Shown in pieces: positions 14,340-32,817 of a DNA stretch of 36,788 nucleotides (the first letter of the stretch is position 1; each line of letters starts with the position of its first letter). A program made the position numbers and the translations under genes. The notes under the pieces were generated by a model. It was given only the letters and a program-made list of their open reading frames with translations, was not told where the DNA came from and ran no database searches. Origin of the DNA: a virus; the IMG/VR virus record IMGVR_UViG_3300022929_000083, positions 1-36,788 of that record, one strand, 5' to 3'.

Positions 14340-14921
14340 ATGAAACCTAAAGACAAACCGCATTACGTAAACAACAAAGAGTTTTCTCTTTCAGTTGTTG
14401 AGTATGTGAAAAAAGTAGAAACTGCAAAAGAAAACTGTACAGCGATTCCTGTTGTAACTGACTACATCGCAACGTGTTTTCTTAAAATTGCAGAAGGACT
14501 GTCACATAAATCGAACTTTATCCGATATACGTATCGAGAAGAGATGGTGATGGATGCAGTTGAAAATTGTCTTAAGGCTATATTGAATTATAATATTGAA
14601 GCCGCTACTAGAACAGGAAACCCTAATGCCTTTGCATATTTTACACAGATATGTTACTATGCATTCTTACGAAGGATTGCAAAAGAAAAGAAGCAGCAGG
14701 ATATTAAATTCAAGTGGATTGAAAAGGCAGGAGTAGATGAGTTTATTTCTGCATTGAATGGTGATGACATTGATTCGTTTGATAACTTTGACTTTATTGA
14801 TGAGCTTCGTAGCAGGATCGATCGAGTAAAAGAAGCAGACCGTGAATTGAAAGAGTTTGCTAAGAAAGAAAAGGTTAAGGAAAAAGCTGGCATTGAATTG
14901 TTTATGGGTAATGCATTTTGA
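14340..14921 (+). CDS. 55: Late-transcription sigma factor gp55
   Basis: A 193-residue divergent sigma factor (T4 gp55 has 185). It binds host RNA polymerase core and directs it to TATAAATA late promoters, with the gp45 clamp as activator. The region-2-like segment includes YREEMVMDAVENCLKAILNY, then NAFAYFTQICYYAFLRRIAK, the aromatic-rich region 2.4-like block that reads the -10 element. The C-terminus ends in a hydrophobic peptide (IELFMGNAF), the place of the clamp-binding tail in T4 gp55. RBS AGGAG precedes the ATG. Four exact late promoters in this window fit its specificity. The stop overlaps the start of gp47 (TTGA). Confidence 0.94.
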   Translation: MKPKDKPHYVNNKEFSLSVVEYVKKVETAKENCTAIPVVTDYIATCFLKIAEGLSHKSNFIRYTYREEMVMDAVENCLKAILNYNIEAATRTGNPNAFAYFTQICYYAFLRRIAKEKKQQDIKFKWIEKAGVDEFISALNGDDIDSFDNFDFIDELRSRIDRVKEADRELKEFAKKEKVKEKAGIELFMGNAF

Positions 14922-15982
14922 AAATAGCTATACTGAATGATACTCACTGTGGTATACGAAACTCCTCAGAGATTTTTATTAACTATCAGGAAAAGTTTTA
15001 TTCTGAAGTATTCTTTCCATATTTGAAAGAACATGGTATTACGCAGATATTGCATTTAGGTGATTACTACGATCACAGAAAATTTATTAACTTCAAAGCA
15101 CAAAATGCAAATCGACAAATGTTCTTGAATGTCCTTAAGGAAGAAGGCATTCATATGGATATTATTCCAGGCAACCATGACGTATTCTATAAAAATACGA
15201 ATGATCTATGCTCTCTCAAAGAGCTACTTGGTTATTATACTTCTAACGTCAATATCATAATGAAGCCGAAGGTAGTAGATTATGATGGCATGAAGATGGC
15301 ACTAGTTCCTTGGATTAATTCAGAGAACTATGCAGAATCTATTCAGTTCATTAAAAGCTGCAATGCTTCTATTCTAGGTGCACACTTAGAACTCGTTGGA
15401 TTCGATATGATGAAAGGTATGCCAAACCCACATGGTATGACTACCGAAGTATTCGATCGATTCGAGATGGTTTTGTCTGGTCATTTTCATACTAAGTCAA
15501 GTAAGGATAATATTCATTACCTTGGTGGACAGATGGAATTCACTTGGGCAGATTGTGAAGATCCAAAATACTTTCATATATTAGATACTGACACACGTGA
15601 GCTCACGCCCGTACGTAACCCGTATACGATGTTTGAAAAAATTATGTACAATGACGCGAAAATAGATTATAATAGTAATTACACTTTACAAAATTTAGAT
15701 AACAAATTTGTGAAGGTGATTGTCGTGAAGAAGACAGATCCTTTCATGTTTGATAAATTTATTGATAAGGTGAATCAGTTTAATCTACATGAGTTGAAGA
15801 TCGCAGAAACCTTCGAAGAGTTTGTTGGCGAGAATGTAGATGACGACAACATATCAGTCGAAGATACTACACAGCTGCTTGATTCATACATTGAAGCAGT
15901 TGATACTGATTTAGATAAAGGTGTTATAAAAGGACTGATGCGAAACCTATACGTAGAAGCATCGACATTGGATATTGTATAG
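14918..15982 (+). CDS. 47: Recombination nuclease subunit gp47 (SbcD/Mre11-like)
   Basis: A 354-residue metallophosphoesterase (T4 gp47, 339). With gp46 it resects DNA ends for recombination-dependent replication and degrades host DNA. All Mre11-type motifs are present: LNDTHCG (7-12), HLGDYYDHR, GNHDVF, GAHLE and SGHFHT. The start codon is TTG at 14918, overlapping the gp55 stop; the protein MKIAILNDTH begins exactly like other gp47 proteins, so no better start exists. The stop overlaps the GTG of gp46 by one base. Both nuclease genes therefore use weak start codons and coupled translation. Confidence 0.95.
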   Translation: MKIAILNDTHCGIRNSSEIFINYQEKFYSEVFFPYLKEHGITQILHLGDYYDHRKFINFKAQNANRQMFLNVLKEEGIHMDIIPGNHDVFYKNTNDLCSLKELLGYYTSNVNIIMKPKVVDYDGMKMALVPWINSENYAESIQFIKSCNASILGAHLELVGFDMMKGMPNPHGMTTEVFDRFEMVLSGHFHTKSSKDNIHYLGGQMEFTWADCEDPKYFHILDTDTRELTPVRNPYTMFEKIMYNDAKIDYNSNYTLQNLDNKFVKVIVVKKTDPFMFDKFIDKVNQFNLHELKIAETFEEFVGENVDDDNISVEDTTQLLDSYIEAVDTDLDKGVIKGLMRNLYVEASTLDIV

Positions 15983-17709
15983 TGATAAAATTTAAGAAAG
16001 TACGGTGGCGTAACTTTTTATCTACAGGTAATGAATGGACAGAAATCTTTTTAGATAGAAGTCCAACCACATTAATTGTCGGTACTAATGGTTCAGGAAA
16101 GAGTACTCTGCTTGATGCTCTTTCCTTTTCGTTATTTGGTAAGCCACACAGAAATATCAACAAGCCTCAGCTGATCAATTCGATTAATAATAAGCAATGT
16201 GAAGTTGAAGTAGAGTTTGATATTGGTACCTACAGGTTTCATGTGAAGCGTGGTATTAAGCCAGCCAAATTTGAAATATGGCAAAATGATGTAATGATTA
16301 ATCAGGATGCATCTGCACGTGATTATCAAAAATTCTTAGAACAAAATATACTAAAGCTGAATCACAAGTCATTCCATCAGATCGTTGTTCTTGGATCTTC
16401 GTCATTCATTCCTTTTATGCAGTTGCCTGCTCAGCATCGTAGAGACGTAATCGAAGATCTACTTGATATACAGATTTTCTCTAAGATGAATCAGATACTA
16501 AAGGAAAAAGACTTAAAGCTAAAAGAGTCTTTGACTAATGCTACGTATCAAATAGAATTGACTAATGAAAAGATTACGCTTCAGCAAAAGTATATTCGTG
16601 ATATTACAGAGTTAAATGAAGGACAGATAAAGGATAAGCAAAAAGAGATTACTGACATTGAAACAGAAATCCAGCTGCTCGAGAAAGATAATACTGAATG
16701 GAAATCCTTTATTGATGATAATCTGACAGACATCAATACTGCAATTGATACTGCTAAAAAGAAAAAAAATGAGTATGTAAAATACGAAGCACAATTCCAG
16801 CAGAAGATAAAGGCTGTTGTGAAAGACGCTAAGTTCTATGAAGAGAATGAAGTATGTCCTACATGTACTCAAGACATTGAAAAGAGCACGCGTGAAACTA
16901 AGCTACTAGAAGCGAAAGCATCGGCTAAGCAATTGTCTGAAGCTTTAGATACTGCTTCATCTGAATCAGGTAAGCTAGATGTAGAAATCGAAACACTGAT
17001 GAATAAGATAGCGCATATTCAGAATTTGAATAACAATATATCTGGCAACAATAAAGCTATTGCATACAATCAGAACAGAATCAATACTATTCGAACAGAA
17101 ATCAATTCTTTATCTGAATCGCAAGGCGATCTAGGAGAAGCAAATAAAGAATTCAATGCACTAACAGAAGAAAAATCTCTGTTGAATGAACAGAAGGCCA
17201 ACATAACAAATGATCGTCTGTATAATTCAATAGCGTCTGAAATGCTTAAAGATACTGGCATTAAGACGAAAGTGATAAAGCAGTATCTTCCTGTTATGAA
17301 TACTCTAATTAATAAATACTTACAGGTATTAGATTTCTTTGTTTCATTCAATCTAGATGAAAGCTTTAATGAAACTATTAAGTCTAGACATCGTGATTCA
17401 TTTAACTATGCTTCTTTCTCAGAGGGTGAAAAGCAGAGAATCGATTTGGCTCTATTGTTCACTTGGAGACAAATAGCTAGGATGAAGAATTCAACATCAA
17501 CTAACTTATTGGTACTTGATGAGACATTTGATTCTTCCCTTGACCATGATGGTGTAGATAACTTAATGAAGATTCTACAGACATTAGATAGTAACACAAA
17601 CGTATTTGTTATATCGCATAAAGGTGATTTGCTCGATGGAAAATTCAGAAGCAAAATTACATTTAATAAAGAGCATAACTTTTCGAAAATTTCATTAGCG
17701 AGTGATTGA
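15982..17709 (+). CDS. 46: Recombination nuclease subunit gp46 (SbcC/Rad50-like)
   Basis: A 575-residue Rad50-like ATPase (T4 gp46, 560), partner of gp47. Walker A GTNGSGKST is at 34-42, followed by coiled coil, a zinc hook CPTC at 292-295, a second coiled coil, the ABC signature FSEGEKQRIDLAL near residue 478, and Walker B LLVLDETFD near 513. The zinc hook allows two complexes to link across DNA ends. The start is GTG, overlapping the gp47 stop (TAGTG). The frame ends 1 base before the ATG of the deformylase gene. Confidence 0.96.
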   Translation: MIKFKKVRWRNFLSTGNEWTEIFLDRSPTTLIVGTNGSGKSTLLDALSFSLFGKPHRNINKPQLINSINNKQCEVEVEFDIGTYRFHVKRGIKPAKFEIWQNDVMINQDASARDYQKFLEQNILKLNHKSFHQIVVLGSSSFIPFMQLPAQHRRDVIEDLLDIQIFSKMNQILKEKDLKLKESLTNATYQIELTNEKITLQQKYIRDITELNEGQIKDKQKEITDIETEIQLLEKDNTEWKSFIDDNLTDINTAIDTAKKKKNEYVKYEAQFQQKIKAVVKDAKFYEENEVCPTCTQDIEKSTRETKLLEAKASAKQLSEALDTASSESGKLDVEIETLMNKIAHIQNLNNNISGNNKAIAYNQNRINTIRTEINSLSESQGDLGEANKEFNALTEEKSLLNEQKANITNDRLYNSIASEMLKDTGIKTKVIKQYLPVMNTLINKYLQVLDFFVSFNLDESFNETIKSRHRDSFNYASFSEGEKQRIDLALLFTWRQIARMKNSTSTNLLVLDETFDSSLDHDGVDNLMKILQTLDSNTNVFVISHKGDLLDGKFRSKITFNKEHNFSKISLASD

Positions 17710-17710
17710 T

Positions 17711-18208
17711 ATGAAGCTTGTACCACCAACTGATCCTATATTAAGAAAAACGATGTCTGTTATGGAAAACTATAACATTGACGATCTGAAAAAAACCATT
17801 GATGAGATGTATGAATTCGTAGCAGCAAATGGCGGTGCAGGAGTTTCAGCAAATCAGCTAGGAATCGATGCACGGATCTTTGTTGTTGCATATGGAGATT
17901 ACAAGCATGCATTCATTAATCCTCAGATCACATGGACATCTAATGAAGACATTATGCTTGAAGAAGGATGCTTATCATATCCTGGCGTGTTTGCTAACGT
18001 AAAAAGGCCGGTGGCATGTAATGTATCATATACGGATTATGAGGGAAATAGTCATACTGATGTTCGATTTACTGGTATTACTAACCGAATCGTGCTACAT
18101 GAGTATGATCACATGGAAGGAAAACTGTTCTATGATCATCTTTCTCGCCTTCAGAAAGATAGATTTGCTACACGTGTACGAAAAAAGCTAGGAGTGTCAA
18201 TAGTTTAG
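17711..18208 (+). CDS. def: Peptide deformylase
   Basis: A 165-residue peptide deformylase, which removes the formyl group from nascent proteins. All three motifs are intact: motif 1 GAGVSANQ (42-49), motif 2 EGCLS (85-89) with metal ligand Cys87, and motif 3 HEYDH (130-134) with ligands His130 and His134 and catalytic Glu131. I start it at the ATG at 17711, since the protein then begins with the usual KLVPPTDPILR; a GTG at 17702 inside gp46 is also in frame. Deformylases are known from marine T4-like phages, where they may speed maturation of phage or host photosystem proteins. It ends the gp55-47-46 operon and is followed by the first repeat cassette. Confidence 0.95.
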   Translation: MKLVPPTDPILRKTMSVMENYNIDDLKKTIDEMYEFVAANGGAGVSANQLGIDARIFVVAYGDYKHAFINPQITWTSNEDIMLEEGCLSYPGVFANVKRPVACNVSYTDYEGNSHTDVRFTGITNRIVLHEYDHMEGKLFYDHLSRLQKDRFATRVRKKLGVSIV

Positions 18209-18210
18209 AT

Positions 18211-18333
18211 TGAAACAATTTATTACAAAATATTTTCTTTATATAAATCAATAGCTTATTGAAGGCAGTTCTCTAAGCTATTGATTCTATTAGTAAAAAT
18301 AAATTGTACATCTCCGGCTAGATGTCGTATAAT
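18211..18333 (+). repeat. Regulatory repeat cassette, copy 1 (upstream of the VWA protein)
   Basis: A 123-base intergenic element. It opens with TGAAACAATTTATTACAA, has an inverted repeat AATCAATAGCTTA (18246-18258) / TAAGCTATTGATT (18274-18286), then AAAATAAATTGTACATCTCC and the promoter TATAAT. It aligns with copies at 20514 and 32128; this one is the most divergent of the three, but the AATCAA-AGCTTA arm, the AAAATAAATTGTACATCT block and the promoter are retained. Confidence 0.85.
18305..18333 (+). promoter_or_regulatory. TGTACA-17-TATAAT promoter before the VWA protein, with inverted repeat in the spacer
   Basis: TGTACA (18305-18310), 17 bases, TATAAT (18328-18333), 23 bases before the ATG at 18357. 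The spacer region contains ACATCT and AGATGT as an inverted repeat 6 bases apart (18308-18325), an operator-like element shared with copy 3 of the cassette. Confidence 0.85.
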
Positions 18334-18356: not shown

Positions 18357-20516
18357 ATGCAATCTAAGTCAATCCTAGCAAAGCTTCTTGCTAATGAGAA
18401 TATCACTATTCGTCATGGCAATTTTCCTACAGCGTACTTTGACGTGCAGGAACGTGTACTTGGTTTACCGGTTTATAAAGACTTTGGTTCAAAAGATACG
18501 TTAGATCTTTTTATCGGCCACGAAGTTGGTCACGCTCTCTATACTCCGTTTGAAGGATGGCACGATTCTCCTGCTGAGATTCAAGTACCTCGCTCGTTTC
18601 TTAATGTAGTTGAAGACATTCGAATCGAACGCAAGATACAATCTAAGTATCCTGGTTTAGTTTCTGTTTTTAAGCGTGGGTACAAGACTCTGGTTGATCA
18701 AAATTTCTTTCACACGAAAGGTCGTGATCTTCAAGAGTATCAGTTAATCGATCGAATCAATCTTAAAGCAAAAATGCGAGACTTGGTTGACATTGATTTC
18801 GCACAAGAAGAAATGCCATATGTTAAGCAAGCGTTCGCTGCAGAAACGTGGGATGAAGTCGTTGCCGCTGCAAAGGCAATCTACGAGTTCATGCGTGAGA
18901 ATGATGAAAACAAAGATGACGCACACGATGATAATTCTGATAATCAATTTCAAGAAGGAATGGAGTCTAGTGAGGATTCTAGTGAGGATTCTAGTGAGGA
19001 TTCTACTGAATTCACTGAGACTCATGATGCTGAAGAACCGCAAGTCGAGCCAAGTTCAGAATCAGAAAAAGACTCCGACGAAGAATTTACAGATGAAGAT
19101 GAATCGACTAATACTACTACCGACGACAAAGAGGGTGGCGAATTAGAGGGTGGCGAATTAGATTCGAAAGTAGATGATTTTACTTCTGAGACTGATGATG
19201 CACTACGCGAAAACGAAAAGCTGTTTGTTGAAGGTTCTGATTCTGATGAACTTGTAATGCATATTCGCGAGCTTACGTGGGAGCAATGTAAGAGTTGCAT
19301 CTATTCATATAGTGAAGTAAAAGAGTCACGTGATAAGCATCGCTCAGATCGATATTTCACGTATAACAAAGATCACACAGCTGACTTTGCTGAATTCCAA
19401 AGCGAGACGAATAAGATTACATCGATACTGGCTAAAGAGTTCGAAATGCGAAAAGCAGCGTATCGATATTCTAGAGCAAAGACTTCAAAGACTGGTGCTT
19501 TGAATGTCAATATGCTTCATAGCTATAAGTACAATGAGGACATCTTCAAAAAGGTAACACAGCTAGCTGATGCTAAATCTCATGGCATGGTTATGATGAT
19601 TGATTATTCTGGATCAATGCAACAGATCTTAGGTGATACTATCAAGCAGGTTCTCAACCTTGCATCGTTCTGTAAGAAAGTAAATATTCCATTCGAAGTT
19701 TATGGGTTTACAAGTAGAGACAAAGATCAATACGTTGCGAATACTGATTACAGCATCAATACGCTTCAACTATCTCACGTGCGCATTACTGAGCTTCTTA
19801 ATTCTTCTATGAAGAAGTCAGAATATAATGAAGCATATTTCGGGTTATACGAGACATCGGCTAAGACTGATCAGTATTCTAGATCAGAATTAGATAGGCT
19901 TGGTACTACTCCATTGAATGAAAGTTTATTGGTTATGAATAAAATACTTCAGCGCTTTAGGAATAAGAATGCAGTTCAGCGAGTCAACTTTGTTTTATTG
20001 TCTGATGGCTTCGGCGGAAAGATGGAAGTTTCTTATCCATGGGCTGATTACGCTGAGCGAAGAAGACTTTCTCGATACTCTATAGAGTTTAATGGTAAAA
20101 CCATTTTTACAGAAACAATTGATCCTTTAGATGTAACAGCATTTCTTTTAGACCAATTAAGGAAAAACGATATCTCAACTATTGGGTTCTTCTTAGCGGA
20201 AACTGGCAGAGACCTTTATTCAATCAACGATTTGGTACACAAAGATATTGAATCGTGGTACGACAGAAGTAAATATGCTGAAATAATGAAAACTAATGTT
20301 CGCAAAAACAAATTTCATTATGTAGACAATAAGATTGGTTATGATCGTTTGTTCATTCTAAAGGCAAGCAAAAGAGCTTTAAGTACAGACGTTGATGAGC
20401 TCTCGATCGACGAGAATGCATCAAAGGCAAAAATCATATCGTCATTTAAGAAGTATTCATCTTCAAAGAAGACGAACCGGATCCTTGCTACCAAATTCGC
20501 AGAGATTGTATCCTGA
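18357..20516 (+). CDS. CobT-like protein: HEXXH metallopeptidase-type domain plus VWA domain
   Basis: A 719-residue protein. The N-terminal domain has HEVGHALYTP with an HEXXH zinc motif at 55-59 and a later NVVEDIR (83-89) that can supply the third, acidic ligand, as in gluzincin-like peptidases. A long acidic Ser/Asp/Glu linker follows (about 190-290). The C-terminal von Willebrand A domain has a complete MIDAS: DYSGSM at 416-421, a Thr in LGTTPLNES and an Asp in LLSDGFGG. CobT of cobaltochelatase has a similar acidic-linker plus VWA layout, but here a zinc-peptidase motif precedes it. The partner ATPase lies directly downstream. Cobalt chelation is unlikely as no other cobalamin gene is near; a peptidase or remodelling role is an inference. 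RBS TTTGGAGATAAC precedes the ATG. Confidence 0.85.
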   Translation: MQSKSILAKLLANENITIRHGNFPTAYFDVQERVLGLPVYKDFGSKDTLDLFIGHEVGHALYTPFEGWHDSPAEIQVPRSFLNVVEDIRIERKIQSKYPGLVSVFKRGYKTLVDQNFFHTKGRDLQEYQLIDRINLKAKMRDLVDIDFAQEEMPYVKQAFAAETWDEVVAAAKAIYEFMRENDENKDDAHDDNSDNQFQEGMESSEDSSEDSSEDSTEFTETHDAEEPQVEPSSESEKDSDEEFTDEDESTNTTTDDKEGGELEGGELDSKVDDFTSETDDALRENEKLFVEGSDSDELVMHIRELTWEQCKSCIYSYSEVKESRDKHRSDRYFTYNKDHTADFAEFQSETNKITSILAKEFEMRKAAYRYSRAKTSKTGALNVNMLHSYKYNEDIFKKVTQLADAKSHGMVMMIDYSGSMQQILGDTIKQVLNLASFCKKVNIPFEVYGFTSRDKDQYVANTDYSINTLQLSHVRITELLNSSMKKSEYNEAYFGLYETSAKTDQYSRSELDRLGTTPLNESLLVMNKILQRFRNKNAVQRVNFVLLSDGFGGKMEVSYPWADYAERRRLSRYSIEFNGKTIFTETIDPLDVTAFLLDQLRKNDISTIGFFLAETGRDLYSINDLVHKDIESWYDRSKYAEIMKTNVRKNKFHYVDNKIGYDRLFILKASKRALSTDVDELSIDENASKAKIISSFKKYSSSKKTNRILATKFAEIVS
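18962..19003 (+). repeat. 12-base tandem repeat in the acidic linker
   Basis: The unit TCTAGTGAGGAT (encoding SSED) is repeated three times in near-perfect tandem and runs into a fourth, diverged TCTACTGAA unit. It encodes the SSEDSSEDSSEDST stretch of the linker. A second tandem repeat, GAGGGTGGCGAATTA twice, is at about 19131-19160 and encodes EGGELEGGEL. Such in-frame repeats point to slippage-driven length variation in a disordered linker. Confidence 0.8.
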
Positions 20517-20634
20517 TACAATTTGTTACAATTTAAATCTCTTTACAAATCAATAGCTTAGAAAACGTATGACATAAGTAATTGATTTGTAAAGAGAAAA
20601 TAAATTGTACATCTTCCTCCAGATAGAGTATAAT
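20514..20634 (+). repeat. Regulatory repeat cassette, copy 2 (upstream of the AAA+ ATPase)
   Basis: A 121-base element that begins at the stop codon of the VWA gene: TGATACAATTTGTTACAATT, then a 16-bp perfect inverted repeat CTCTTTACAAATCAAT (20539-20554) / ATTGATTTGTAAAGAG (20581-20596), AAAATAAATTGTACATCT and TATAAT. It aligns without gaps to copy 3 at 32128 over the same 121 bases. Differences concentrate in the hairpin loop, and one arm change is matched by its partner. Confidence 0.9.
20606..20634 (+). promoter_or_regulatory. TGTACA-17-TATAAT promoter before the AAA+ ATPase
   Basis: TGTACA (20606-20611), 17 bases, TATAAT (20629-20634). The predicted transcript starts near 20641, which favours the ATG at 20669 over the one at 20651. 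The ACATCT half-site of the operator-like repeat is kept but its partner is degenerate (AGATAG). Confidence 0.85.
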
Positions 20635-20668
20635 GGTATCTTAATTAGTAATGAGTGGGACTTATATT

Positions 20669-21802
20669 ATGATCGATCGTAAAATTGAAGAAGCTATTGC
20701 AACTATGTTTCCTGACCGTACTAGCGGTGAGTTTACTCCTAAAGAAATTGCTGCTGCTGCAGAAACCGTTGGAGTTTCTTCTAGCAAAGCGTATACATAT
20801 ACACTCGCACAAACAAAAATTCGTCGCGGCTTATACCGTCTTTCTTCGGTAGTCGTTCCTTTCAAAACGCAGGAAAAAACAATGTCGTCAATTACGTCAA
20901 TTACAAATGACGAAGTCTTCGTTCCACCTAGAGACTCATCGTTTGTGACTTGGGGACATTGCACTGATGTTTCTAAGATTATTCAGTCACGCAACTTTTA
21001 TCCAGTGTTCGTGACAGGTTTATCCGGCAACGGTAAAACCATGATGGTAGAACAAACTTGTGCAAAACTCAACCGCGAGTATGTACGAGTACAAGTTACT
21101 CCTGAGACAGATGAGGATGATCTGATCGGTGGCTTTCGTTTGGTAAATGGAGAAACAGTTTTCTGTAAAGGTCCAGTTATCAAAGCGATGGAAAAGGGTG
21201 CAATCCTTCTCATCGACGAAATAGATCGTGGTTCTAATAAACTCATGTGTCTTCAAGGAGTGCTCGAGGGTAAACCGGTCCTAGTTAAAAAAACCGGTGA
21301 AGTCATTACTCCACTAGATGGCTTTAATGTGATCGCTACGGCTAATACGAAAGGTAAAGGTTCAGATGACGGTCGATTCATTTCGGCTACTATCATCGAT
21401 GAAGCTTTCCTCGAGCGATTCACTATTACCCTCGAGCAACCATATCCTACTTCTGCAGTAGAGCGTAAGATCGTTGTAAAGCATATGGAAAAGTTTGAAT
21501 GTGTTGATGATGAATTTGCTGATGCTCTTGTGGTTTGGTCAGAAGCGATTCGTAAGACTTTTGAAGATGGTGGTGTAGACGAAGTAATCTCAACGCGTCG
21601 TCTATGTCATATCGTACAATCATTTTCGATCTTCAAAGATAAGACGAAAGCAATTGAGCTTTGCGTATCGCGTTTCGATAGTGATACAAAAGAGGCTTTC
21701 TTAGATTTGTATAGCAAAGTTGATATATCAGCTGATACAAGTGGAGATGCATCATGTATCGCCACATCATCACTTGATTCTATATTTGATAGCGAGGTGT
21801 AA
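20669..21802 (+). CDS. cobS: MoxR/CobS-like AAA+ ATPase
   Basis: A 377-residue AAA+ ATPase of the CobS/MoxR type, annotated cobS in several marine T4-like phages. Walker A is GLSGNGKT (about 117-124), Walker B ILLIDEID (about 169-176), followed by an Asn sensor-1 block (NVIATANTKGKG) and an arginine-rich region (EAFLERFTITL). The N-terminal 70 residues look like a small helical DNA-binding-type domain (FTPKEIAAAAETVGVSSSKA). I choose ATG 20669 because it has GAGTGG upstream and the promoter TSS lies near 20641; ATG 20651 would add six residues. MoxR-type ATPases act with VWA proteins, and the VWA partner is the preceding gene. The C-terminus is followed directly by the next ATG. Confidence 0.9.
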   Translation: MIDRKIEEAIATMFPDRTSGEFTPKEIAAAAETVGVSSSKAYTYTLAQTKIRRGLYRLSSVVVPFKTQEKTMSSITSITNDEVFVPPRDSSFVTWGHCTDVSKIIQSRNFYPVFVTGLSGNGKTMMVEQTCAKLNREYVRVQVTPETDEDDLIGGFRLVNGETVFCKGPVIKAMEKGAILLIDEIDRGSNKLMCLQGVLEGKPVLVKKTGEVITPLDGFNVIATANTKGKGSDDGRFISATIIDEAFLERFTITLEQPYPTSAVERKIVVKHMEKFECVDDEFADALVVWSEAIRKTFEDGGVDEVISTRRLCHIVQSFSIFKDKTKAIELCVSRFDSDTKEAFLDLYSKVDISADTSGDASCIATSSLDSIFDSEV

Positions 21803-23412: not shown

Positions 23413-23499
23413 GCCTTGATGGTGAAATTGGTAGACACAAGGGACTTAAAATCCCTCGGCAGAAATGCTGTGCCGGTTCGACTCCGGCTCGAGGCACCA
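23413..23499 (+). tRNA. tRNA-Leu (anticodon UAA)
   Basis: An 87-base tRNA. The acceptor stem GCCTTGA pairs with TCGAGGC (one G-T pair), the discriminator is A, and CCA is encoded (23497-23499). The D-loop has TTGGTAGAC. The anticodon stem AGGGA/TCCCT encloses CTTAAAA, which gives anticodon TAA at 23447-23449. The long variable arm (CGGCAGAAATGCTG), as in a class II tRNA, and the T-arm with GGTTCGACTCC complete the cloverleaf. It reads UUA and UUG leucine codons, common in this AT-rich genome. It is the only tRNA seen in the window. Confidence 0.95.
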
Positions 23500-32061: not shown

Positions 32062-32127
32062 CCCGAGTATCATATATCATGTCTAGTTAACAGCGAGCGG
32101 CCACGAGCGCCCACGGAAGAGGATTTC

Positions 32128-32248
32128 TGATACAATTTGTGACAATTTAAATCTCTTTATAAATCAACAGCTTACGGATCCGATTTCCTAAGTGATTGAT
32201 TTATAAGGAGAAAATAAATTGTACATCTCCGGCCAGATGTCGTATAAT
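32128..32248 (+). repeat. Regulatory repeat cassette, copy 3 (upstream of the GNAT-like gene)
   Basis: A 121-base element, gapless match in layout to copy 2: TGATACAATTTGTGACAATT, arms CTCTTTATAAATCAA (32153-32167) and TTGATTTATAAGGAG (32196-32210), AAAATAAATTGTACATCT and TATAAT. Relative to copy 2 the C-G pair in the stem becomes T-A on both arms, and a T-A pair becomes T-G. Confidence 0.9.
32220..32248 (+). promoter_or_regulatory. TGTACA-17-TATAAT promoter before the GNAT-like gene, with inverted repeat in the spacer
   Basis: TGTACA (32220-32225), 17 bases, TATAAT (32243-32248). The ACATCT-CCGGCC-AGATGT inverted repeat spans 32223-32240. Transcription would start near 32255 and favours the ATG at 32281. 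Confidence 0.85.
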
Positions 32249-32280
32249 TACCCTATACTGTGATTAAAGAGACATACATT

Positions 32281-32817
32281 ATGGAAAGAATTGAATATCC
32301 TCGAGTTAACCGACTTTATACATTTGACAACTACGGTGGAGAATTCCGCTTTGTCGGTAAGATTGGACGTACACTTGAAGTGTGGGTAGACGACGAAGGT
32401 TTAGCATATAAGAACTTTAAGGTCGTTATGCCTAGAGATCGTGGACCTGCTAAGGTTGCATGTGAAATCGAACTTTCTATGTCACGCGGAAGCAAAGGTG
32501 CTTCTTGGAGCGTTGACCTAACTAAAGTCGATTCTAAGTTTCAAGGTTTTGGTATTGCTGTGAAAGCATACGCTTTTATTATTAAGAAGATGGGTATCGT
32601 CTTGCAAGCAGGTTCAATGCAATCTCCTGGCGGACGTTCTATCTGGGCACAACTTGCTAAAGAGAATTCCGTAATGGTTTATGGCATGAAAGGTCGGAAT
32701 GGCGATCTGCAGATCATGGTTCCGAACGAAGATGGAACTGAAGTAGAGTGTGAAGACGAGAACGTTCAAGCTTATGACGTTCACGGATTTAATATGTTTG
32801 CTGTGAAAGTAGCTTAA
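32281..32817 (+). CDS. GNAT-like acetyltransferase-fold protein
   Basis: A 178-residue protein. The block SKFQGFGIAVKAYAFIIKKM (about residues 85-104, with the QGFGIA acetyl-CoA pyrophosphate-loop type motif) followed by LQAGSMQSPGGRSIWAQLAK is the pattern of GNAT-fold proteins found in phages. The first ~80 residues carry charged beta strands. The start is ATG 32281, with AAGAG upstream; a GTG at 32260 would overlap the predicted transcription start. The target is unknown. It is controlled by the third copy of the repeated promoter cassette, the same control as the VWA and AAA+ genes. The next ATG shares one base with its stop. Confidence 0.65.
   Translation: MERIEYPRVNRLYTFDNYGGEFRFVGKIGRTLEVWVDDEGLAYKNFKVVMPRDRGPAKVACEIELSMSRGSKGASWSVDLTKVDSKFQGFGIAVKAYAFIIKKMGIVLQAGSMQSPGGRSIWAQLAKENSVMVYGMKGRNGDLQIMVPNEDGTEVECEDENVQAYDVHGFNMFAVKVA

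Follow-up and report, generated by a model that had tools for sequence, protein, structure and literature searches.

Several described systems pair a MoxR-type AAA+ ATPase with a VWA protein, and the stretch of DNA analysed here, IMG/VR virus record IMGVR_UViG_3300022929_000083 (the window; 36,788 nucleotides), carries such a pair at positions 18357-21802. In jumbo phages, a MoxR gene stands with a metallopeptidase-vWA gene, and a role in assembly has been proposed for them (Iyer et al. 2021, PMC7824862). In NorQ-NorD, the best-studied relative, a finger of the VWA protein enters the pore of the ATPase, and ATP turnover twists the VWA domain and stretches the linker to the N-terminal domain (PMC13036017). 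The N-terminal domain of NorD was called unconserved in a 2023 paper (PMC9976466). In cyanophages, cobS is a core gene (PMC3037559) and is widely counted as an auxiliary metabolic gene for vitamin B12. A 2021 study in PLoS Biology treats the viral pair as CobST and the peptidase label as a mistake (PMC8651126).

The chances are about even that the pair in the window is one ATP-driven remodelling machine with optional cleavage, which acts at the time of replication and recombination and serves neither cobalamin synthesis nor late virion assembly. The pair itself is not new. The cyanophage core pair is annotated "peptidase/CobS", and the jumbo-phage pair was published in 2021, so that the idea of a MoxR and vWA-metallopeptidase pair, offered in an earlier reading of the window (the original prediction), was already in print. 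New, as far as the literature searched goes, are the pattern of intact and lost zinc sites, the link to CbbO, and the evidence from promoters and neighbourhoods.

The two proteins and the zinc site

18357-20516, + strand: coding sequence, 719 amino acids, comprising N-terminal zincin, acidic disordered linker and VWA domain; PHROG 459 'peptidase', E 6e-180, residues 3-718
18519-18533, + strand: HEVGH, residues 55-59, zinc-binding and catalytic motif; H55, E56 and H59 invariant in 24/24 homologues
18612-18617, + strand: E86-D87, proposed third zinc ligand and its neighbour, motif NVxEDxRI; invariant in 24/24, in model helix 79-97
18909-19172, + strand: acidic disordered linker, about residues 185-272; predicted local distance difference test (pLDDT) <50 over 185-272
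19377-19580, + strand: long helix plus 'finger'-like segment that precedes the VWA domain, residues 341-408, TG-x-LN...YK...DIF; model helix 341-379
19602-19619, + strand: metal ion-dependent adhesion site (MIDAS) DYSGSM, residues 416-421, completed by T518 (19908-19910) and D550 (20004-20006); invariant in 24/24
20651-21802, + strand: coding sequence, 383 amino acids, MoxR-type AAA+ ATPase ('CobS'); PHROG 249, 8e-110; Pfam AAA_5, 3e-21
20651-20845, + strand: small domain at the N terminus of the ATPase, perhaps a winged helix
21017-21040, + strand: Walker A region GLSGNGKT; G123, G126, G128 and K129 invariant in 20 homologues
21203-21226, + strand: Walker B ILLIDEID; D189, E190 and D192 invariant

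VWA protein: The predicted zinc site consists of an HEXXH motif and a downstream Glu (E86), as in the gluzincin type of zincin metallopeptidases. H55, E56, H59, N83, E86, D87 and R89 are unchanged in all 24 homologues, each 20-47% identical to the window protein, and the five MIDAS residues (D416, S418, S420, T518 and D550) are equally constant. The attached zinc peptidase is probably active. The coordinates, reading frames, HEXXH at 55-59, E86/D87, acidic disordered linker and MIDAS at 416-421 given in the original prediction are all borne out. For the N-terminal domain it expected a zinc-peptidase fold, at which the models hint weakly. AlphaFold2 gives a modest full-length model (pLDDT 68) and a good model of the N-terminal domain (pLDDT 86), which contains three strands, an HEXXH helix (46-62) and a helix bearing E86 (79-97). 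The first ten PDB matches of this predicted domain in a fold search are all zincins (ArdC, selecase, BlaR1), with weak scores (E at least 0.14). With the whole model, the VWA part matches the MDN1-MIDAS and NorD VWA structures, and no other part is matched. Searched with all homologues, Pfam and NCBIfam yield no usable family for the VWA protein, and sequence profiles of the full protein, its N-terminal part and its VWA part have no match in the PDB. In the 'finger'-like segment, G380, Y390 and D395-F397 are invariant in the homologue alignment. The segment aligns with the equivalent part of CobT and of other proteins from mobile genetic elements, and by analogy with NorD (PMC13036017) residues 341-408 may act as the finger. 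The linker DNA contains 12-nt tandem repeats at 18962-19009 (SSED repeats), whose copy number is likely to change by slippage.

ATPase: The second product is a MoxR-type AAA+ ATPase, as predicted, and also matches AAA_3 and CbbQ_C in Pfam. A PDB profile search finds CobS (1e-35), CbbQ/NirQ/NorQ (6e-22) and NorQ (2e-20). For its N-terminal domain, examined in the Syn9 homologue, there are weak helix-turn-helix matches, the best at E 0.0017 and below the cut-off, and no match in a PDB search; a DNA-binding domain there is a weak possibility. In the ATPase tree, the Kyanoviridae form a single deep clade (100/100) outside cellular CobS, and cellular CobS groups with two Zobellviridae-like sequences (100/98). 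The deeper order has long branches, with approximately unbiased (AU) tests at p 0.06 and 0.09, the latter for a grouping of Kyanoviridae with CobS, which is not rejected.

The pair: The locus has the make-up of a MoxR/VWA pair, namely a MoxR-group AAA+ protein with Walker A and B adjoining a VWA protein with a MIDAS. The sequence supports the proposal that the two form an ATP-driven machine of the MoxR-VWA kind, to which a zinc peptidase, probably an active one, is joined. Homologues of the VWA protein occur in 463 phage records and those of the ATPase in 571, mostly cyanophages, and further homologues occur in 56 viral contigs. The ATPase gene comes next after the VWA gene at every locus with enough downstream DNA, usually at a spacing of 80-140 bp. 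One viral contig (L030:7222-8397) has the ATPase gene as two open reading frames (ORFs), by sequencing error or genuine break. Matches from bacterial genome bins (L062-L083) resemble viral contigs binned into metagenome-assembled genomes.

Wider family: In profile comparisons, the N-terminal domain of the window family finds counterparts in plasmid VWA proteins (98%, 4e-14), in CobT-like proteins of other phages (97%, 1e-11) and in CbbO-like proteins (96%, 1e-9). Direct comparison with CobT gives no match, and CobT is reached solely through other phages (90%) or plasmids (74%). The VWA part matches the VWA parts of other mobile elements (97%), which match CobT at 99.96%; its direct match to NorD/CbbO is weak. 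SSU5, B1VFA, ICP2, T5S1, CRP-810, GTE7, TIN2 and the plasmids examined retain an intact zinc motif. ICP2 has VD where others have ED, and in the Gordonia-type proteins the third ligand is uncertain. Two phage sublineages (nickie, phiK7B1, ANB28) have lost the motif and kept the MIDAS; in the nickie-like and ANB28 phages (L118, L114, L117) both zinc-binding His residues are gone, and the adjacent ATPase gene is retained along with the MIDAS. Genuine CobT has lost the motif as well (HADSIAL, GTADALA), and the CbbO-like proteins (L090-L099) have a homologous N-terminal domain with HxxxH that lacks the catalytic Glu (HMAAH). Because the zinc site is lost or reduced in all of these and the VWA part is kept, the ATPase-VWA core is, on sequence grounds, the constant part of the system and the peptidase site an optional one. 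Protein degradation, which the original prediction saw as the purpose of the system, is not supported in that role, given members that have lost catalytic residues and kept the VWA domain.

Promoters and genomic setting

14278, 18305, 20606, 29831, 31644, 32220 and 33361: exact TGTACAT-N16-TATAAT promoters, replication half
3789, 3810, 7707, 7727 and 11286, + strand: matches to TATAAATA (T4-type late -10); none in the 12-36.8 kb replication half
18224-18333, + strand: stem-loop and promoter cassette, copy 1; promoter 18305-18333, before 18357
20513-20634, + strand: cassette copy 2; promoter 20606-20634, before 20651
32127-32248, + strand: cassette copy 3; promoter 32220-32248, before the ORF at 32260-32817

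Promoters: The seven exact copies of TGTACAT-N16-TATAAT all lie within 14-34 kb of the window and precede gp55, the VWA gene, the ATPase gene, a MazG-like gene and others. At <=2 mismatches, 14 copies are seen and 3.0 expected. The motif is found before gp44 too, is of a general replication-side type, and forms a clean predicted class of middle or early promoters of the virus. The five matches to TATAAATA in the window are all on the + strand and directly upstream of structural genes. Since the exact replication-side motif precedes both genes of the pair and TATAAATA is confined to structural genes, both genes belong to the replication-side class. The text of the P-HM2 cyanophage transcriptome paper names neither the VWA gene nor the ATPase gene.

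Stem-loop cassette: The repeat cassette that had been predicted is present in three copies, whose stem-loops fold far better than shuffles (z -3.8, -6.2 and -6.7). It resembles the promoter early stem-loop (PeSL) of T4-like phages in the description available from PMC4503421, where a stem-loop is joined to a promoter at several genes; the three window cassettes share this repeated arrangement, with strong folds and the exact promoter. The 'small regulon' inferred from the cassette is weak, because the promoter is general in the replication half (before gp55, the MazG-like gene and gp44) and in relatives, replication-side promoters stand before one gene or both and mostly lack the stem-loop of the window. 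The label 'GNAT-like' for the third gene is unsupported, since the ORF at 32260-32817 has no Pfam or PHROG match at E 0.01. Both claims were dropped.

14340-17709, + strand: gp55 late sigma factor, gp47 and gp46 (Pfam, PHROG)
17702-18208, + strand: peptide deformylase (Pfam 1e-38), similarly placed in relatives L058 and L060
21803-25113, + strand: dATP/dGTP pyrophosphohydrolase-like gene, gp45 clamp, tRNA-Leu, gp44 and gp62 clamp loader

T4-like context: The record is an incomplete T4-like (Kyanoviridae) fragment of 36.8 kb. Its head and tail genes occupy 0.1-11.8 kb, followed by UvsY, UvsW, gp55, gp47 and gp46 at 11.9-17.7 kb, with gp45, gp44, gp62, polymerase and primase beyond. The gp46-gp45 interval holds the peptide deformylase, the VWA protein and the MoxR-type ATPase. 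The order gp47-gp46-(peptide deformylase)-VWA-ATPase-(other)-gp45-gp44 is common to Syn9, Pelagibacter phage Mosig, S-PM2 and Ochrobactrum phage OC, some of which have additional small genes within it. A tRNA-Leu (TAA) lies at 23413-23499, in the gp45/gp44 interval.

Other phages and plasmids: In nickie the order is primase-ligase-cobT-cobS-dnaE, and in SSU5, B1VFA, phiK7B1 and ANB28 the pair is near the DNA polymerase gene. ICP2 and T5S1 have the pair in an early block with primase, helicase and polymerase, and the virion genes elsewhere in a block of their own. On plasmids, AAA and DUF3150 genes accompany the VWA gene. An IncC plasmid has ssb-bet-exo-DUF3150-VWA, P. mandelii has RecT-exo-AAA-DUF3150-VWA, and PA34 and one IncHI1B plasmid likewise have the plasmid form next to genes of replication or recombination. 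Large plasmids, conjugative ones among them (L108, L109, L121, L122), have AAA, DUF3150 and zincin-VWA genes beside ssb/bet/exo or other DNA genes. The literature yielded no functional study of these plasmid genes, and that on SXT/IncC elements and plasmid Rts1 yielded nothing about AAA/DUF3150/VWA genes. The neighbourhoods suggest a tie to replication and recombination as a repeated hint and not as proof.

The proposed machine and its rivals

Mechanism: The observed domain make-up, invariant catalytic and MIDAS residues, adjacency, synteny and promoter class can be joined in one scheme. The MoxR-type AAA+ hexamer would turn its VWA partner in the manner of NorQ-NorD, and the MIDAS would hold a client protein by an acidic site. 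The ATPase would then twist the VWA domain and stretch the linker, and the client would be remodelled. Where the zincin beyond the linker is intact, it could cut the client or a loop exposed through remodelling. The pair would be made alongside the replication and recombination genes, and the best guess for the client is a replication or recombination protein, of either the phage or its host. The zinc-site pattern, the promoter class and the neighbours make such remodelling likelier than cobalt chelation or late virion assembly.

Several points weigh against this scheme. Complex formation, twisting, peptidase activity and, above all, the client are inferred, and the zincin fold matches are weak. 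The count of TATAAATA matches is no higher than chance, and their placing alone is informative. Random placement equals the observed closeness to replication genes in 23-32% of trials for three phages and in 71% for the window. Taken genome by genome, the closeness falls short of significance, so that the association depends on its recurrence in several lineages, which are partly of common descent. Near the pair in Roseobacter CRP-810 there is just a DNA-repair gene, and the neighbours in Gordonia (GTE7), Tsukamurella (TIN2) and Listeria (LP-026) phages are uninformative. An early-expressed gene can still serve assembly, as T4 gp31 does.

Virion assembly: For the jumbo-phage pair, the published proposal is a chaperone of virion assembly with peptidolytic processing of structural proteins, modelled on a MoxR-vWA system required for archaeal virus tail assembly (PMC7824862). 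This role is improbable for the window pair, in which both genes have a replication-side promoter and neither a late-type one. In Zobellviridae and nickie, 7-12 kb separate the pair from the block of virion genes, and the VWA part occurs on conjugative plasmids, which make no virions (1,509 PLSDB records match).

Metal insertion: About equally improbable is a chaperone that inserts metal into a metalloenzyme of phage or host, for example ribonucleotide reductase or one of the 2OG-Fe(II) oxygenases that these phages encode, with the HEXXH holding or handing over the metal and cutting nothing. NorQD inserts iron (PMC13036017, PMC9976466), CbbO-like N-terminal domains retain HxxxH without the catalytic Glu, and Mosig has dioxygenase genes near the pair. 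In contrast, the catalytic Glu56 is invariant in the window family, where metal carriage alone would not need it, and no one metalloenzyme gene constantly adjoins the pair across the lineages seen.

Cobaltochelatase: Still less probable is a CobS/CobT pair that works with host CobN and raises cobalamin output, as proposed in PLoS Biology in 2021 (PMC8651126). The ATPase has CobS as its nearest solved single-subunit relative (1e-35), and 16/24 VWA proteins show a weak match to TIGR02442 'putative cobaltochelatase'; the window protein has no match to the Pfam CobT N-terminal family PF06213. HEXXH is kept by every member of the Kyanoviridae family and lost from genuine CobT, which argues against calling the peptidase label a mistake. 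The deep ATPase clade of Kyanoviridae outside cellular CobS also counts against the cobaltochelatase reading, though a grouping with CobS is not rejected (AU p 0.09). Relatives are present in phages that infect E. coli, Klebsiella or V. cholerae, and these hosts are not known to synthesize cobalamin through CobN. No CobN-family gene was found in the 36.8 kb fragment, an incomplete record, in line with the original statement that no cobalamin gene is near, and the doubt cast there on the cobaltochelatase label is supported. In control searches, Caulobacter vibrioides matches the CobT family and not the CobN family.

Counter-defence: Just as doubtful is a protease for counter-defence or host takeover that resembles the antirestriction protein ArdC. 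It is hinted at by weak matches to Pfam MPTase-PolyVal (0.038, the only Pfam hint for the zincin domain) and ArdC of plasmid R388 (E 0.14, the top fold match). Against it, the gene is core with fixed synteny in Kyanoviridae, shows little of the patchy distribution usual for counter-defence, and has lost the zinc site in members still among replication genes (nickie, ANB28).

Wider reading: Remodelling at replication and recombination time could extend further. Tentatively, the system may be a protease-remodeller of replication and recombination complexes, ATP-driven and specific to mobile elements, that is common to T4-like phages, phage-plasmids, Zobellviridae and conjugative plasmids. CobST, and perhaps the CbbO-type activators, would then derive from it through loss of the peptidase site. 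If a remodelling protease at replication is the true role, a core gene in a highly abundant group of ocean viruses has been misread as a B12 gene. The pair also offers testable systems for the open question of how MoxR-VWA machines act on clients, and the zinc sites form a natural series (intact, half-lost, lost) for probing what the N-terminal domain contributes.

Comparison with known systems

Cyanophage 'peptidase'/'CobS': The cyanophage genes T4-GC 146 and T4-GC 150, such as S-PM2p122/p123 and Syn9 gp150/gp153, are homologous to the window pair and occupy the same gp46-gp45 place. Identity to the window is ~31% for the VWA protein and 46-53% for the ATPase. Unlike them, the window pair has stem-loop cassettes before both genes.

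Jumbo-phage pair: The group 2.2 pair resembles the window pair by description, with MoxR beside a vWA protein that has an N-terminal metallopeptidase (PMC7824862). A virion-assembly role was proposed for it, whereas the promoter class, genome position and plasmid relatives of the window pair point to replication time.

Plasmid sets: The AAA-DUF3150-VWA sets of IncC and related plasmids have an HEXXH N-terminal domain and a VWA domain with MIDAS, as in the window. In contrast, they contain an additional DUF3150 gene, another gene order and a divergent ATPase.

CobS/CobT: CobS is the nearest solved relative of the window ATPase apart from midasin, and CobT shares the VWA finger segment and MIDAS with the window protein. 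CobT differs in an N-terminal domain without a zinc motif and in its partner CobN, with which it acts in cobalamin synthesis.

NorQ/NorD and CbbQ/CbbO: These systems comprise a MoxR ATPase and a partner with N-terminal domain, linker and VWA domain, like the window pair. Their clients are known metalloenzymes, and their ATPases belong to a different clade from that of the window. The CbbO-like proteins have a homologous N-terminal domain without the catalytic Glu (HMAAH), whereas the zincin of the window protein is intact.

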